From contig NZ_JAQZAN010000003.1 in assembly GCF_028737255.1 (NCBI RefSeq), positions 310,001-374,000 on the forward strand: a stretch of DNA of 64,000 nucleotides, read 5' to 3'. The notes under the pieces were generated by a model. It was not told where the DNA came from. It saw only the letters and a list, made by a program, of their open reading frames with translations, and did not search any database. Position 1 is the first letter of the stretch. Each line of letters begins with the position of its first letter. A program made the position numbers and the translations under genes. Origin of the DNA: Actinomycetospora straminea. GTDB lineage: Bacteria > Actinomycetota > Actinomycetes > Mycobacteriales > Pseudonocardiaceae. Shown piece by piece: positions 13,440-49,068 of the stretch.

Positions 13440-14282
13440 TCAGGCGTACAGGGCCTCGGCGTTGCCGGCGAGGGTGAGCCGGCCGAGCTCGCCGTCGCCC
13501 ATCGCCTCGGCCATGCGGGCGAGCTCGCCGGTCCGGTCGCCCCAGGGCTCGTCGCTGGCGAACAGCACGCGGTCGTGCCCGATGCCGCGGCGCTCGATCT
13601 CGGCGGCGAGCCAGCGGGGCGCGAAGCCGATGGCCCAGCTGGTGTCCGTGTAGACCTGCTTGCCGGCCGCGATCCAGTCGAAGAACCGGCCCCCGACGAG
13701 CTTGATGTGCCCGCTCATCCCGCCGCCGAGGTGCACGAGGTGCAGCTTGACGTCGTCGGCGTAGCGCTCGACGAGCTCGCCGACCTCGTCGATGTCCGAC
13801 GCCGCGCCCGGCGAGGTGTGCACGTGCACGACGCGCCCGTGCTCGCGGGCTGCGTCGAAGATCGCCTCGAGCTGGGGGCGGCAGGCCTCGTCGGACGCCC
13901 GGCCGCCGAGCAGGAAGCTGATCTTGATGACGCGGACCTCGGGCTCGGCGGCGAGCCGCAGCGCGGCGGCCGTCTGCTCGGCGTCCTGCGGGCGCGGCGA
14001 GGCCCAGATGCCCGCCCGGACGCGCGGGTCCTTCTGCGCGGCCTCGAGGCAGAGCTCGTTGAGCGCGAACGAGGCGCTCGCGTCCGGCACGCCGTAGTTC
14101 GGGATGGCGACGGCCAGCTCGGTGCCCTCGGCGTCGAGGTCGGCGCGCAGGTCGTCGATCGTCGCCCGGGCGGTGACGTCGGGGTTCACCGGCGGCCCGC
14201 CGTAGAACGGGTAGGCCGGCAGGACGCCGAGGTGGCGGTGGGCGTCGTGCACGGCGCGGACGACTCGGTCGGCGAGGGCCAT
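13440..14282 (-). CDS. Amidohydrolase-2 family metal-dependent hydrolase
   Basis: 280 aa TIM-barrel protein. N-terminal DAHRH (metal-binding His pair, near residue 13-17), HVHTSPG on the fourth strand, LVHLGGG, and C-terminal FASDEPWGD with the conserved Asp. The family hydrolyses or decarboxylates lactones and carboxylic acids (for example 2-pyrone dicarboxylate and ACMS decarboxylase types); the substrate here is unknown. The upstream region carries a 24-bp element shared with the monooxygenase at 44580-45872. Confidence 0.8.
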   Translation of the reverse strand: MALADRVVRAVHDAHRHLGVLPAYPFYGGPPVNPDVTARATIDDLRADLDAEGTELAVAIPNYGVPDASASFALNELCLEAAQKDPRVRAGIWASPRPQDAEQTAAALRLAAEPEVRVIKISFLLGGRASDEACRPQLEAIFDAAREHGRVVHVHTSPGAASDIDEVGELVERYADDVKLHLVHLGGGMSGHIKLVGGRFFDWIAAGKQVYTDTSWAIGFAPRWLAAEIERRGIGHDRVLFASDEPWGDRTGELARMAEAMGDGELGRLTLAGNAEALYA

Positions 14283-14305
14283 GCCGCGAGTCCAGCAAGC
14301 GTGTG

Positions 14306-14329
14306 TTGCCGGGTGGTTGCGTCCGGACT
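14306..14329 (-). promoter_or_regulatory. 24-bp element shared with 45922-45945
   Basis: Begins TTGCCGGGTGG and ends TCCGGACT; 22 of 24 positions match 45922-45945 in the same orientation. It lies 24 bp before the ATG of the amidohydrolase gene. Likely a binding site for one common activator or repressor (inference). Confidence 0.55.
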
Positions 14330-14389
14330 CCTGGCGTGTGACGCGGCTCGTGCTCCGGGACCACGCTGCTCGTGAGAGCGTGCCTGTCC

Positions 14390-15145
14390 GTGCGCACGGT
14401 GCAGGTGGTGGGGATCGGTCTGGGCGACCCGGGGCAGCTGACGCTCGACGCGGTCGAGGCGCTCGGCGGCGTGGACGTGGTGGTCCTGCTGCACAAGCCG
14501 GGACCGGCCGACGAGCTGACCGCGATCCGCGCGCGGATCGTCGAGCGCTTCGCGCCGCAGGCCCGCGTCGTCGAGCGCGACGACGCGGTGCGCGACCGCA
14601 CGTCCCCGGACTACGAGGGCGCCACCGAGCGCTGGCGCGACGAGCGGGCCGCGCTCTACGAGCAGACGCTGCTCGACGAGGTGCCCGACGGCGGCTCGTG
14701 CGCGCTGCTCGTGTGGGGCGACCCGGCGATCTACGACGGCACGGTCGAGATGCTCCACCGCCTCGACGCCCGCGGCCGCGTGGCGCTCGACTGGCGGGTC
14801 GTGCCCGGGCTCGGCGCGCCGTCGGTGCTGGCCGCGGCGCACCGCACGACGCTGACCCGCACCGCCCGCGCCGCCACCATCACCCCGGCCCGCCGGGTGC
14901 TCGACGACAGCGTCGACTCGGGCGAGGCGGACCTCGTCGTCATGCTCGACGGCGCCCGCGACCACGGCCTGGCGCACCTGCCCGACGACGCCGAGGTCTA
15001 CTGGGGTGCCTACGTCGGGACACCGGACGAGGTGCTGATCGCGGGCCGCGTCGGCGACGTCCGCGAGCGCATCCTGGCCGCGCGCGCCGAGCACCGGGAG
15101 CGCAAGGGCTGGCTCATGGACACCTACCTGGTGCGCCGGCGCTGA
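14390..15145 (+). CDS. cobF: Precorrin-6A synthase (deacetylating) CobF
   Basis: 251 aa. Tetrapyrrole methylase fold: VVGIGLGDPGQLT N-terminal loop, LVWGDPAIYD central motif, VPGLGAPSVLAAAH, and the C-terminal RKGWLMDTYLVRR typical of CobF. It transfers a methyl from SAM to C1 of precorrin-5 with loss of acetate in aerobic cobalamin synthesis. GTG 14390 gives the family's usual MRTV-GIG start; GTG 14372 is a possible longer start. No other corrin biosynthetic gene adjoins it, but cobalt genes cbtBA lie 11 kb away. Its stop overlaps the next start (TGATG). Confidence 0.88.
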   Translation: MRTVQVVGIGLGDPGQLTLDAVEALGGVDVVVLLHKPGPADELTAIRARIVERFAPQARVVERDDAVRDRTSPDYEGATERWRDERAALYEQTLLDEVPDGGSCALLVWGDPAIYDGTVEMLHRLDARGRVALDWRVVPGLGAPSVLAAAHRTTLTRTARAATITPARRVLDDSVDSGEADLVVMLDGARDHGLAHLPDDAEVYWGAYVGTPDEVLIAGRVGDVRERILAARAEHRERKGWLMDTYLVRRR

Positions 15146-40090: not shown

Positions 40091-41104
40091 TCACCGCAGC
40101 TCGGCCGGCAGCCCGAACCGCGCGTGGTGCTCGGCGCCGATGAACGAGGTCACCGCGGCGATCCGGTCGCCGCGCAGGGTGAGGACGTCGATCGACCACG
40201 GGCGGTGCGGCTCGTCCGCGGGCGCCGCGGGCGGACGGAGGTACGACGCCACCGCGACCTGCCCGTTCGCCGTGACCTCGAGGTGGCGCCACGACCCGCA
40301 GCCGCCGAGCGGGACGGCGCGCGCGAAGGCCGCCACCGGCCCGAGGCCCGCGTACCAGTGCGCCATCGGCGGCATCGACCACGTGACGTCCTCGGTGAGC
40401 AGCGCGACGAGCGCCTCGGCGTCGCCCCGCTGCAGCGCGGAGGAGTAGCCGGTGACGACGTCGCGCAGCCGGGCGTCGTCGACCTCGCGCAGCGTGCGCT
40501 GCTGGGTGGGGTCCGGGACCTTCTCGGCGACCAGCTTCCGGGCCCGCTGCAGCGCCGAGTTGACCGACGCCGTCGAGGTGTCCATCGTCGCGGCGATCTC
40601 CGCGGCCGAGAACCCGAGCACCTCGAACAGCACCAGCGCCGCCCGCTGGTTGCCCGGCAGGTGCTGCAGGGCGGCGACGAACGCGAGCTCCACCGCCTCG
40701 CGCTCCTCGGCCCGCGCGCCCGGCTCGTCGGGGTACGGGCCGAGCCACGCGACCTCGGTGACCGGCACGTCGCCCGTCACGGGCCGGTCGCTCGCGGGAC
40801 CGAGGTCCATCGGCAGCGCCCGACGGCCGCGCGCGTCGACGAGGTCGAGGCACACGCGCGTGGCGACGGTGTGGAGCCACGTGCGCAGCGAGCTGCGCCC
40901 CTGGAAGCCGCCGAGCCCCCGCCACGCCTTGACCAGCGCGTCCTGCAGCGCGTCGTCGGCGTCGTGGGCGGACCCGAGGATGCGGTAGCAGTGCGCGTGC
41001 AGCTCGCGGCGCAGCGGCGCGACCAGCCGGCCGAAGGCGGCGTCGTCCCCGTCCCGGGCCAGCGCGAGATCGCCGTCGACGTCCCGGACCGTCGTCTCGC
41101 CCAC
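40091..41104 (-). CDS. ECF sigma factor with C-terminal SnoaL-like domain
   Basis: 337 aa. Sigma region 2 (YRILGSAHDADDALQDALVKAWRGL), region 4 (LPGNQRAALVLFEVLGFSAAEIAATM, TASVNSALQRARK), then an NTF2/SnoaL domain (about 205-337, GDAEALVALLTEDVTWSMPP). This is the SigG/SigJ-like long ECF type, in which the extra domain replaces or supplements an anti-sigma factor. No anti-sigma gene is adjacent. Starts 3 nt after the MerR gene stop. Confidence 0.87.
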   Translation of the reverse strand: MGETTVRDVDGDLALARDGDDAAFGRLVAPLRRELHAHCYRILGSAHDADDALQDALVKAWRGLGGFQGRSSLRTWLHTVATRVCLDLVDARGRRALPMDLGPASDRPVTGDVPVTEVAWLGPYPDEPGARAEEREAVELAFVAALQHLPGNQRAALVLFEVLGFSAAEIAATMDTSTASVNSALQRARKLVAEKVPDPTQQRTLREVDDARLRDVVTGYSSALQRGDAEALVALLTEDVTWSMPPMAHWYAGLGPVAAFARAVPLGGCGSWRHLEVTANGQVAVASYLRPPAAPADEPHRPWSIDVLTLRGDRIAAVTSFIGAEHHARFGLPAELR

Positions 41105-41896: not shown

Positions 41897-41946
41897 CGCC
41901 CCCCACGCTACTGATCGTCCTTCGTGACACCTCGAGGCGACATATG

Positions 41947-41960
41947 ACACGTGATCGTGT
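41947..41960. promoter_or_regulatory. ACACG-TGAT-CGTGT inverted repeat
   Basis: Perfect 5-bp arms (41947-41951, 41956-41960) about 50 bp upstream of the MerR start. MerR-type operators are palindromes within promoters, so this is the candidate autoregulatory site; TGACAC also recurs at 41926. Confidence 0.4.
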
Positions 41961-42023
41961 TTCATGACGCGGGCCACGGGTCATCCCAGGGCAACGCACC
42001 AGTAACTGTGACGGCTGGTTCCT

Positions 42024-42040
42024 GGTACCAACGGTACCGT
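42024..42040. promoter_or_regulatory. Double GGTACC element before the reductase-desaturase operon
   Basis: GGTACCAACGGTACCGT; two 8-bp palindromes (TGGTACCA, CGGTACCG) 9 bp apart. It matches 33612-33628 in 15 of 17 positions and lies 24 bp before the chosen GTG. Confidence 0.6.
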
Positions 42041-44579: not shown

Positions 44580-45872
44580 CTAGGAACCCAGCGCCAGGAC
44601 GTTGCAGACGTCGCCGCGCGGGCCCGTGCCGGTGAGGCCGCGCTGGGAGCGGATGCGCTCGGCGAGGTACTCGGCGTCGCGCCCGACGCCGGAGAAGCGG
44701 CCCGAGCCCCAGGTCCACAGCCACGGCAGGCCGAGGAAGTACAGGCCCGGCGAGCTGGTCACGCCGCGGGTGTGGGCCGGCGCGCCGCGCCCGGTGAACA
44801 CCGGCACGTCGACCCAGCGGAAGTCCTGGCGGAAGCCGATGCACCACACCACCGACGTGATGCCCGTGTCGGCCAGGCGCAGCTCGGTCGTCTCGGCCCG
44901 CGGGCGCCACACGGGCGTGTAGCGCTCCTCGACGGGGGCGTCGACCTGCTGCTCGGCGATGTACTTGTCGATCGTGTCCTTGATCGACTCCGAGACCTCG
45001 TCGGCGTGGTCGAGGCGCCTCGTGAGGTCGGCGTCGAAGTGCAGCACGCCGTCGCGGTGGTCGGTGAGCAGGCCGTAGAGGCGCATGCCGTCGCGGGCGT
45101 GGGCGCGCAGGTCGATGTCGCGGCCGCCGTCGCGCCCGGTGACGTAGTGGTTGGCCTGGGCCCGGACCGCCTCGCGCCGCGGGTGCTCGGTGACGGGCAT
45201 GTCGTAGTAGCCCATCTCGGCGAGCCAGTCGGTGACGTCGCGGCCGCGGTAGAACCGCGCCACCCGCGGCGCGTCGCCGACGACGAGGTGGACCTGCCGG
45301 CCCTCGAGGTGCAGGTCCTCCGCGATCTGCGCGCCGGACTGCCCGCTGCCGACGACGAGGACCTCACCGGGAGGCAGCTGCGCGCCGCTCTTGTAGTGGT
45401 GCGACTGGACCTGCGTGATCCCGGCCGGGAGCGGCTCGGACAGCGGTGGGGTGATCGGCGTGTGGTAGCCGCCGGTGGCGACGACGACCTGATCGGCGGT
45501 GAGGTCGCCGGCGCTCGTCGTCAGGTGGTAGGTGCCGCGCGGGTCGCGGGAGACGCGGGTGACCTCCACGCCCTCGACGATCGGCGGGTCGACGAACGCC
45601 CGGTACGCCTCGAGGTAGTCGACGATCTGGTCGCGGACCATGAAGCCGTGCGGGTCGTCGCCCGCGTACGGGAAGTCGGGTAGCTGGCACTGCCAGTTGG
45701 GCGTGACCAGGCAGAACGTGTCCCAGCGGTAGGTCTTCCAGGAGTGCGCCACCTCGGCCCGCTCGAGCACGACGTGGTCGATGCCCCGACGGCCCAGGCA
45801 CCGGCTCATCGACAGCCCGGCCTGCCCGCCCCCCACGACGACGACCGGCCAGTGCCCGCCCGACAGTTCCAT
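44580..45872 (-). CDS. Flavin-containing monooxygenase-like oxidoreductase
   Basis: 430 aa. FAD GGGQAGLSMSRCL near residue 14, SWKTYRWDTFCLVTPNW, ATG motif VVVATGGYHTP, NADPH site VVGSGQSGAQIAEDL, and C-terminal GLYFLGLPWLWTWGS. This pattern is that of class B-like FMOs (Baeyer-Villiger or N-oxygenase types). Substrate unknown. Preceded by the 24-bp element shared with 14306-14329. Same strand as the luciferase-like and hydrolase genes, but 99 nt after them. Confidence 0.86.
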   Translation of the reverse strand: MELSGGHWPVVVVGGGQAGLSMSRCLGRRGIDHVVLERAEVAHSWKTYRWDTFCLVTPNWQCQLPDFPYAGDDPHGFMVRDQIVDYLEAYRAFVDPPIVEGVEVTRVSRDPRGTYHLTTSAGDLTADQVVVATGGYHTPITPPLSEPLPAGITQVQSHHYKSGAQLPPGEVLVVGSGQSGAQIAEDLHLEGRQVHLVVGDAPRVARFYRGRDVTDWLAEMGYYDMPVTEHPRREAVRAQANHYVTGRDGGRDIDLRAHARDGMRLYGLLTDHRDGVLHFDADLTRRLDHADEVSESIKDTIDKYIAEQQVDAPVEERYTPVWRPRAETTELRLADTGITSVVWCIGFRQDFRWVDVPVFTGRGAPAHTRGVTSSPGLYFLGLPWLWTWGSGRFSGVGRDAEYLAERIRSQRGLTGTGPRGDVCNVLALGS

Positions 45873-45921
45873 GATCGCTCCCCGCGTCGCTCGGATTCCT
45901 CCTCACGATCAGCGGGGTCGA

Positions 45922-45945
45922 TTGCCGGGTGATTGCCTCCGGACT
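45922..45945 (-). promoter_or_regulatory. 24-bp element shared with 14306-14329
   Basis: Starts TTGCCGGGTGA and ends TCCGGACT; differs from 14306-14329 only at positions 11 and 16. Lies 50-73 bp before the monooxygenase ATG. In the gene's direction it contains two GCAA direct half-repeats. Confidence 0.55.
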
Positions 45946-45971
45946 GCGCGCTCGTTGCCGCGTGTAACGGG

Positions 45972-47967: not shown

Positions 47968-48069
47968 TGTGACTGCGGACACTACGAAGAGCGCCGCGCT
48001 CCGCACGATCCGTTGACCGCCGACGTCGGCCGGTTCCTGCAGCGGATCCCGTCCTCGGGGGGACACGAG

Positions 48070-49068
48070 ATGTCACTCGCCTTCACCGAGGACCTGGTGC
48101 GCCCGGACCTCGGCGACGCGGACACGGTCGACATCCGCACGCCGCACCCGTCCCTGGCCCGCTCGCGGACGATCGAGTTCCTCGGCTGCGGGCACGCGAT
48201 GACGGTCGACGGCGACGCCGACGACTTCGACGCCGCGGTGTCCTGGCGGCGGGTCGGCGAGGTCGGTGTGCTGCGCTCGCGCTACCGCGCGCCCGTCACC
48301 GTCACCTGCACGCCCCCGATCCCTTGGGTGACGATCAGCTTCGTCCCGCGCGGCGCGGTGTCGTTCGCGGCCGCGGGGCGGACCACCACCGGCGACCGCC
48401 GTCGCGGCGTCGTCCTCGACTACGCCGAGCGCGTGGACATGCGCTGGGGCCCGGGCACCGAGCAGTTCATGGTCGCGGTCGCGCGCGACCGGCTCGAGCG
48501 GGGGCTGCGCACGCTCGTCGAGGACGCCCCCGACGCGCCGCTGGTGTTCGAGCCGGGACTCGAGGTCGACGGCGCGGGGCACGCCGTGGTCGGCGCGGTG
48601 GCGAGCCTGCGGGCCCTGCTCGCGCACTCGTCCGGGCCGCCGCCGGCGGTCCTGACCGGCGAGGTCGAGCACGCCGTCGTGACGGCGCTGCTGCTCGGGA
48701 CGCGGCACAACCACCGGGAACGGATCTTCCGCCGGTCACCGCCCGCGCCGCCGCGGGTGCTGCGCCGGGTGCTCGAGCTGGTCGAGTCCGCCCACGACCG
48801 GGCGCTCACCGTCGCCGACCTGGCCGCGCACGCCGGCACCAGCGAGCGGGCGCTGCACGCGGCCTTCCGCCGCGAGCTCGGCACCACCCCCATGGCCTAC
48901 CTGCGGGGGCGTCGCCTCGACGCCGCCCGCGAGGACCTGCTCGCCGCCGAGCCGGGCGACGGGGTCGCGGCGATCGCAATGCGGCACGGGTTCGCGCACC
49001 TCGGGCGGTTCGCGGCGGCGTACCGGGCGCGGTTCTCCGAGGCGCCGTCGACGACGTTGCGGCGGTGA
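48070..49068 (+). CDS. AraC-family transcriptional regulator
   Basis: 332 aa from ATG 48070 (GGGGGGAC upstream; TTG 48013 is a longer option). N-terminal AraC_binding_2-like domain (about 1-200) and a C-terminal pair of HTH motifs: LTVADLAAHAGTSERALHAAFRRELG and VAAIAMRHGFAHLGRFAAAYRARF-SEAP. Likely activator of the divergent hydrolase-LLM-monooxygenase genes. Confidence 0.87.
   Translation: MSLAFTEDLVRPDLGDADTVDIRTPHPSLARSRTIEFLGCGHAMTVDGDADDFDAAVSWRRVGEVGVLRSRYRAPVTVTCTPPIPWVTISFVPRGAVSFAAAGRTTTGDRRRGVVLDYAERVDMRWGPGTEQFMVAVARDRLERGLRTLVEDAPDAPLVFEPGLEVDGAGHAVVGAVASLRALLAHSSGPPPAVLTGEVEHAVVTALLLGTRHNHRERIFRRSPPAPPRVLRRVLELVESAHDRALTVADLAAHAGTSERALHAAFRRELGTTPMAYLRGRRLDAAREDLLAAEPGDGVAAIAMRHGFAHLGRFAAAYRARFSEAPSTTLRR

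Follow-up and report, generated by a model that had tools for sequence, protein, structure and literature searches.

A repeated element upstream of two minus-strand genes

Within the window (the whole 64,000-nucleotide stretch of Actinomycetospora straminea DNA analysed here), an amidohydrolase gene and a gene for a flavin oxidoreductase of the MSMEG_0569 family, hereafter the flavoprotein, are each preceded by a copy of a 24-bp sequence (Table 1). As the preliminary description had reported, positions 14306-14329 and 45922-45945 are identical at 22 of 24 positions and have the same orientation. Both copies are intergenic, the first ending 23 nt ahead of the amidohydrolase start codon and the second 49 nt ahead of that of the flavoprotein. 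When up to three mismatches were allowed, these were the only two sites in the 6.29-Mb genome, and a plasmid similarity search returned no match. In DNA of 75% GC, pairs with 22/24 identity are not rare: the window holds 27 pairs of 24-mers with at least this identity (18 direct and 9 inverted), so that the length of the match alone is weak evidence, and only the 14306/45922 pair lies outside predicted genes at both ends. The significance of the pair therefore derives from its conservation.

Table 1. Positions of the two arrays, their predicted -10-like hexamers and the genes downstream.
Feature	Position	Strand	Remarks
Amidohydrolase (PF04909)	13440..14282	(-)	nit1C neighbour in most loci examined
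Predicted -10-like hexamer TGGACT	14289..14294	(-)	from alignment
Site 1, tandem array	14305..14342	(-)	contains the reported 24-mer; top match in the window of the matrices from other genera
MSMEG_0569-family flavin-dependent oxidoreductase (TIGR04046)	44580..45872	(-)	nit1C component; 663.9 bits, cut-off 498.35
Predicted -10-like hexamer GATCGT	45905..45910	(-)	10 nt past the last unit of site 2
Site 2, tandem array	45921..45968	(-)	contains the reported 24-mer; second match in the window of both matrices

The full element is longer than 24 bp and spans approximately the arrays of Table 1. Read in gene direction, site 1 has the form GTCAC-n6-GGAGT-n6-GCAAC-n6-GCAAC, and is the sole match in the window to GnnAC-n6-GnAACA, while site 2 has the form GTTAC-n5-GCAAC-n6-GCAGT-n6-GCAAT-n6-GCAAT. 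The units are thus GnnAC/GnAAY-like, with a spacing of ~11 bp, and stop 10 nt from a -10-like hexamer. At site 1 this hexamer lies 6 nt ahead of the ATG, and the amidohydrolase start is predicted from the sequence to be leaderless; gene starts are those of a simple GC-frame caller or of alignments. A tetrapyrrole-methylase gene (14390-15145) is divergent from the amidohydrolase gene, a short intergenic region being common to both.

The hexamers differ among promoters. Those of the flavoprotein carry an A as second and a T as sixth base in 16/16 orthologues; alignments of amidohydrolase promoters gave CAGGGT in three of six, the remaining three having TGGACT or TGTACT, and those of gene 0572 mostly TGTGCT or TGAGCT. 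Among nit1C promoters, TGnACT often takes the place of TAnnnT. The amtB promoter of the same genome reads TTAAC-n6-GAAAC-n6-CGACG-n6-GAAAC-n10-CATCCT. The distance from the last unit to the A2/T6 hexamer is 10 nt in all 16 amtB and all 16 flavoprotein promoters of the genus, with six of the 16 amtB promoters carrying an additional xAxxxT hexamer at spacing 7.

Another array, resembling those of the nitrogen regulator GlnR, lies at 41980-42006 (GTCAT-n6-GCAAC-n6-GTAAC), upstream of ferredoxin-reductase/desaturase genes; three relatives examined for comparison lack its pattern, and it was therefore not counted as a third array. The region of about 41938-42040 also holds other blocks that are conserved in the four species aligned, a near-palindrome, TATGACAC...GTGTTTCA, and a GGTTCC-type repeat; they precede the reductase gene, in the interval separating it from a MerR gene.

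Conservation of the element within the genus and across genera

Among 18 genomes of the genus, the 24-mer with at most three mismatches was found at 11 sites in eight genomes, all of them directly upstream of an orthologue of the flavoprotein or the amidohydrolase. The flavoprotein is present in 16 of the 18 genomes (82-100% identity), and a related array lies upstream of all 16 close orthologues. The amidohydrolase is present in six and was not found in the other 12, so it is not indispensable; related arrays precede all six copies, as judged by eye, and are partly diverged. A two-box pattern, [GT]nnA[CT]-n6-GnAA[CT], was found within 300 bp upstream of 15/16 flavoprotein, 14/16 0572 and 3/6 amidohydrolase genes. 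It also occurred in 18 of the 30 amt loci, mostly (16 loci) as the TTAAC-n6-GAAAC type, and gave 16 matches among 197 gene upstreams taken for comparison, 12 of them at target genes included in that set.

An extended pattern, AGTC-n5-GNAAY-n6-GNAAY, gave 27 matches in the 18 genomes, compared to one for the reversed control, and none in 30 amt upstreams. Twenty-six of the 27 lie at a flavoprotein, 0572 or amidohydrolase gene; for the remaining match (G017:C5), no target could be recognised within the 3-kb locus. All three exact matches in the A. straminea genome are upstream of genes of the nit1C system; with one mismatch allowed, the same genome gave four matches and three for the control. 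The genome-wide motif search proposed in the preliminary description, run here with the extended pattern, thus did not place the motif mainly in coding regions or at random positions. In the wider family, matches occur in 144 of 390 genomes, and the reversed pattern is also found frequently: the specificity of the short IUPAC pattern does not extend beyond the genus. One genome of the family (G308) has 40 matches (19 forward, 21 reverse) and zero for the control, possibly representing a repeated element.

To extend the comparison beyond the genus, a genome scan for the amidohydrolase was used; it confirmed 88 loci, of which the best 80 were analysed, 76 of them outside Actinomycetospora and with related species over-represented. 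The commonest arrangement near the amidohydrolase is flavoprotein-amidohydrolase-0572-radical SAM. Among these best 80 of 88 loci, gene 0572 is found in 74, the radical SAM gene in 73 and the flavoprotein in 70, and 53 have the full order flavoprotein-amidohydrolase-0572-radical SAM-0567-two hydrolases-glycosyltransferase. The two promoters had been described as unrelated, but they are not: the genes behind them are members of a single cluster in most loci examined. The six loci without 0572 comprise four from Actinomycetospora and two from Pseudonocardia, the latter two having the amidohydrolase and no site.

A 41-bp matrix was trained on 41 of 73 operon-head upstreams from outside the genus (those with a site within 250 bp), using a seed that was hand-written after viewing Amycolatopsis sites found by a GlnR-like pattern. 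In the window, site 1 (33.7 bits) and site 2 (16.1 bits) ranked highest, the next match scoring 3.4. In a whole-locus scan, 75 of the best 80 of 88 loci have a site at 14 bits or more, and so do 73 of those 74 that hold gene 0572; L276 has nit1C genes and no site, and its contig starts inside the flavoprotein gene. The 32 loci left out of training all have a site, mostly some 300-450 bp before the flavoprotein; in L220, the one such distant-site locus inspected, a small ORF lies between site and gene. Overall, the loci contain 79 matches versus one in reversed sequence, and none of 208 upstreams of internal nit1C genes passes 10 bits. In Pseudonocardia lacus, where the flavoprotein is divergent from amidohydrolase-0572-radical SAM, the motif is found each way (38.0 and 17.3 bits). 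Additional matches away from the nit1C promoter were seen at L243:12721 (25.1 bits) and L238:2425 (14.5 bits).

De novo expectation-maximisation from random seeds, applied to 59 non-redundant upstreams of the 73 (the same loci as for the matrix), gave the motif GGTAACgc..c.TTgTTCCGGATGAaACcg.tCGGaAAt, for which sites 1 and 2 are again the best in the window (21.4 and 21.0, next -2.0). Between the units lies a conserved TTCCGGA block; the 41-bp motif that includes it is conserved across genera and is absent from amtB. When the 41-bp matrix was applied to upstreams of the genus at a threshold of at least 14 bits, 9/16 flavoprotein, 15/16 0572, 3/6 amidohydrolase and 0/16 amtB regions passed. The whole 41-bp motif therefore does not match amtB, a recognised GlnR target, and the negative amtB scores indicate that it goes beyond a generic GlnR box: it is nit1C-specific, and GlnR boxes are not defined by it.

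The dispersed nit1C system of Actinomycetospora

The other nit1C genes of the A. straminea genome are present in a cluster on another contig (G000:C7) with one matrix site in 20 kb (26.9 bits), so that nit1C, flavoprotein and amidohydrolase constitute three separate units with related promoters instead of one contiguous cluster. Neither flavoprotein nor amidohydrolase occurs in the nit1C stretch of this genome or in those of G007 and G013. At the nit1C promoter itself (L299:12598-12638 and upstream, in G000:C7; also L150), an extra GTCAC-n6-GAAAC box lies 52 bp 5' of the array. A second flavoprotein, 43% identical to that of the window, is encoded elsewhere in the genome (G000:C33:115363-116601).

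In four relatives that were read closely (L108, L109, L110 and L114), the flavoprotein is divergent to the nit1C genes, namely 0572, radical SAM, 0567, two C-N hydrolases, which match nitrilase models below those models' cut-offs, and a glycosyltransferase. Sixteen genomes have high-identity copies of both flavoprotein and 0572; by coordinates, the two are adjacent in seven and lie on different contigs in the other nine, A. straminea included. In one Actinomycetospora group the flavoprotein has stayed next to 0572, and the amidohydrolase, where present (G002, G009 and G017), is on another contig; in the group of the window all three are apart. A plausible order of events would be inversion of the flavoprotein, departure of the amidohydrolase and then departure of the flavoprotein. 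In most actinomycete loci examined, a single promoter would head flavoprotein, amidohydrolase, 0572, radical SAM, 0567, nitrilase-like genes and glycosyltransferase, while in the window's group the cluster is split into three transcription units, each with a promoter copy, which would allow co-regulation to survive without linkage.

The genus thus offers a natural series, with the flavoprotein beside nit1C or with all units apart, for studying promoter retention during the breakup of a cluster. The common promoter and the gene order tie the amidohydrolase to nit1C and single it out as a gene for testing, and more nit1C members can be found with the 41-bp signature. In the open-access literature, searched in part, we found no report of an amidohydrolase in nit1C and none of a common actinomycete nit1C promoter.

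Candidate regulators and comparison with known systems

Taken together, these findings give good support to the original proposal of a shared regulator for both genes, and the repeated GCAA in gene direction had also been seen correctly. The assignment of the site to the AraC or LuxR class is most likely wrong, as an 11-bp spacing over four to five units is the layout of an OmpR-family regulator, GlnR. We consider it probable that the repeated element is the core of a conserved nit1C nitrogen-starvation promoter driven by GlnR, and the two elements of the window are most likely promoters of a dispersed nit1C regulon under its control. At sites 1 and 2, GlnR would bind about four head-to-tail units ~11 bp apart, with 10 nt between the end of the last one and the -10, and would turn the genes on when nitrogen is scarce, with transcription presumably starting downstream of the predicted hexamers.

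A GlnR gene is present in the A. straminea genome, its best PDB matches including GlnR entries, and a close homologue is found in 16 of the 18 genus genomes. It was not found in the 59% and 83% complete assemblies of G011 and G015, of which G015 nonetheless has sites. GnnAC/GnAAC units separated by 6-nt spacers are found exactly at site 1 and, with GCAAT variants and one n5 step, at site 2, and the 10 nt between last unit and hexamer is the distance seen in amtB of the genus. Counting against GlnR are the failure of amtB promoters to match the 41-bp motif, the TTCCGGA block, for which it does not account, the end of site 2 in GCAAT rather than the published GnAAC, the 10-bp first step of site 2, and the presence of the amidohydrolase in just six of the 18 genomes, with three of its promoters scoring below 14 bits.

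The conservation of the TTCCGGA-bearing 41-bp motif across genera and its absence from amtB would also be expected if a nit1C-specific regulator other than GlnR, of OmpR or SARP type and encoded elsewhere, bound the 11-bp repeats, alone or with GlnR. SARPs too use 11-bp repeats near the -10, and a SARP (AfsR-like) gene adjoins the flavoprotein in G002 and G005. In G017 and G010, however, the flavoprotein lacks this neighbour, and the SARP gene was rejected as a candidate because it has no close relative among the PF00486 loci of the A. straminea genome, the best match being 41% identical. Moreover, the gene families recurring in at least 10 of the best 80 of 88 loci number eight, all of them amidohydrolase or nit1C and none a regulator, which indicates that there is no conserved linked regulator at the thresholds used. 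GlnR of Mycobacterium smegmatis, in addition, binds upstream of 0572 (PMC4222082, available sections), and on balance we regard a nit1C-specific regulator as unlikely.

Far less probable is binding by the AraC-family regulator encoded at 48013-49068 or by another AraC/LuxR protein. AraC sites can be direct repeats, and this AndR-like gene lies ~2 kb from site 2, but only four of the 18 genomes hold a close orthologue of it (at least 85%), with a weaker paralogue (about 42%) elsewhere in several, and the site is also found in G001, G003, G013 and G015, where the nearest AraC relatives are partial or no more than 42% identical. The idea was rejected on this mismatch between the distributions of gene and site. 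Similarly, an ECF sigma gene at 40091-41104 and the frequency of TGnACT instead of TAnnnT could point to an alternative sigma factor promoter rather than an activator site, which we find very hard to reconcile with GnAAY units lying 10 and 21 nt before the hexamer, versus the usual 16-18 nt, and with the xAxxxT hexamers of site 2 and amtB. Chance, for all the comparable pairs in the window, is contradicted by conservation in the genus and by recovery with motifs from other genera, and has next to no probability.

The GlnR reading agrees with what is reported for M. smegmatis. In the sections available, purified GlnR binds upstream of msmeg_0572 in a gel shift, and MSMEG_0565-0572 are listed in the section on wild-type and glnR-mutant transcriptomes (PMC4222082); a GlnR ChIP-seq peak at MSMEG0572 is listed with a value of 263.4, which we take as an expression change (PMC3662644, part seen). 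By locus numbers, MSMEG_0565-0572 are neighbouring genes in one stretch, in contrast to the three loci here. The consensus given in the portions at hand is gTnAc-n6-GaAAc in an a-b-a-b arrangement for Streptomyces coelicolor and Gn2AC-n6-GnAACA for M. smegmatis (PMC3662644, PMC10704036), and the design of the four-site head-to-tail complex of GlnR with RNA polymerase described there (PMC3662644; review, PMC10704036) matches the arrays found here. Like GlnR boxes, these arrays consist of several tandem GnnAC/GnAAC units with 6-nt spacers, site 1 fitting the M. smegmatis consensus exactly; unlike them, nit1C promoters add the conserved TTCCGGA between units, many have a TGnACT -10, and site 2 has GCAAT units and one 10-bp step. 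It is possible, rather than probable, that a nit1C promoter code shared across many actinomycete genera combines the GlnR array with a second input (TTCCGGA and the TGnACT -10), kept the regulon together through its three-locus breakup in Actinomycetospora, and identifies the amidohydrolase as functioning within actinomycete nit1C metabolism.

The nit1C system is widespread, and its full pathway is described as unsettled in the sections available (PMC1199592, PMC11049912). In Pseudomonas, nit1C, with the NitC nitrilase and cyanide assimilation, is under a sigma54-type regulator, NitA (PMC11049912, part seen), of which the present loci gave no incidental sign. The genes examined here share with that system homologues of 0572, radical SAM, 0567, nitrilase-like hydrolases, flavoprotein and glycosyltransferase, but actinomycetes have the amidohydrolase alongside, and in A. 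straminea the system is split into three loci.
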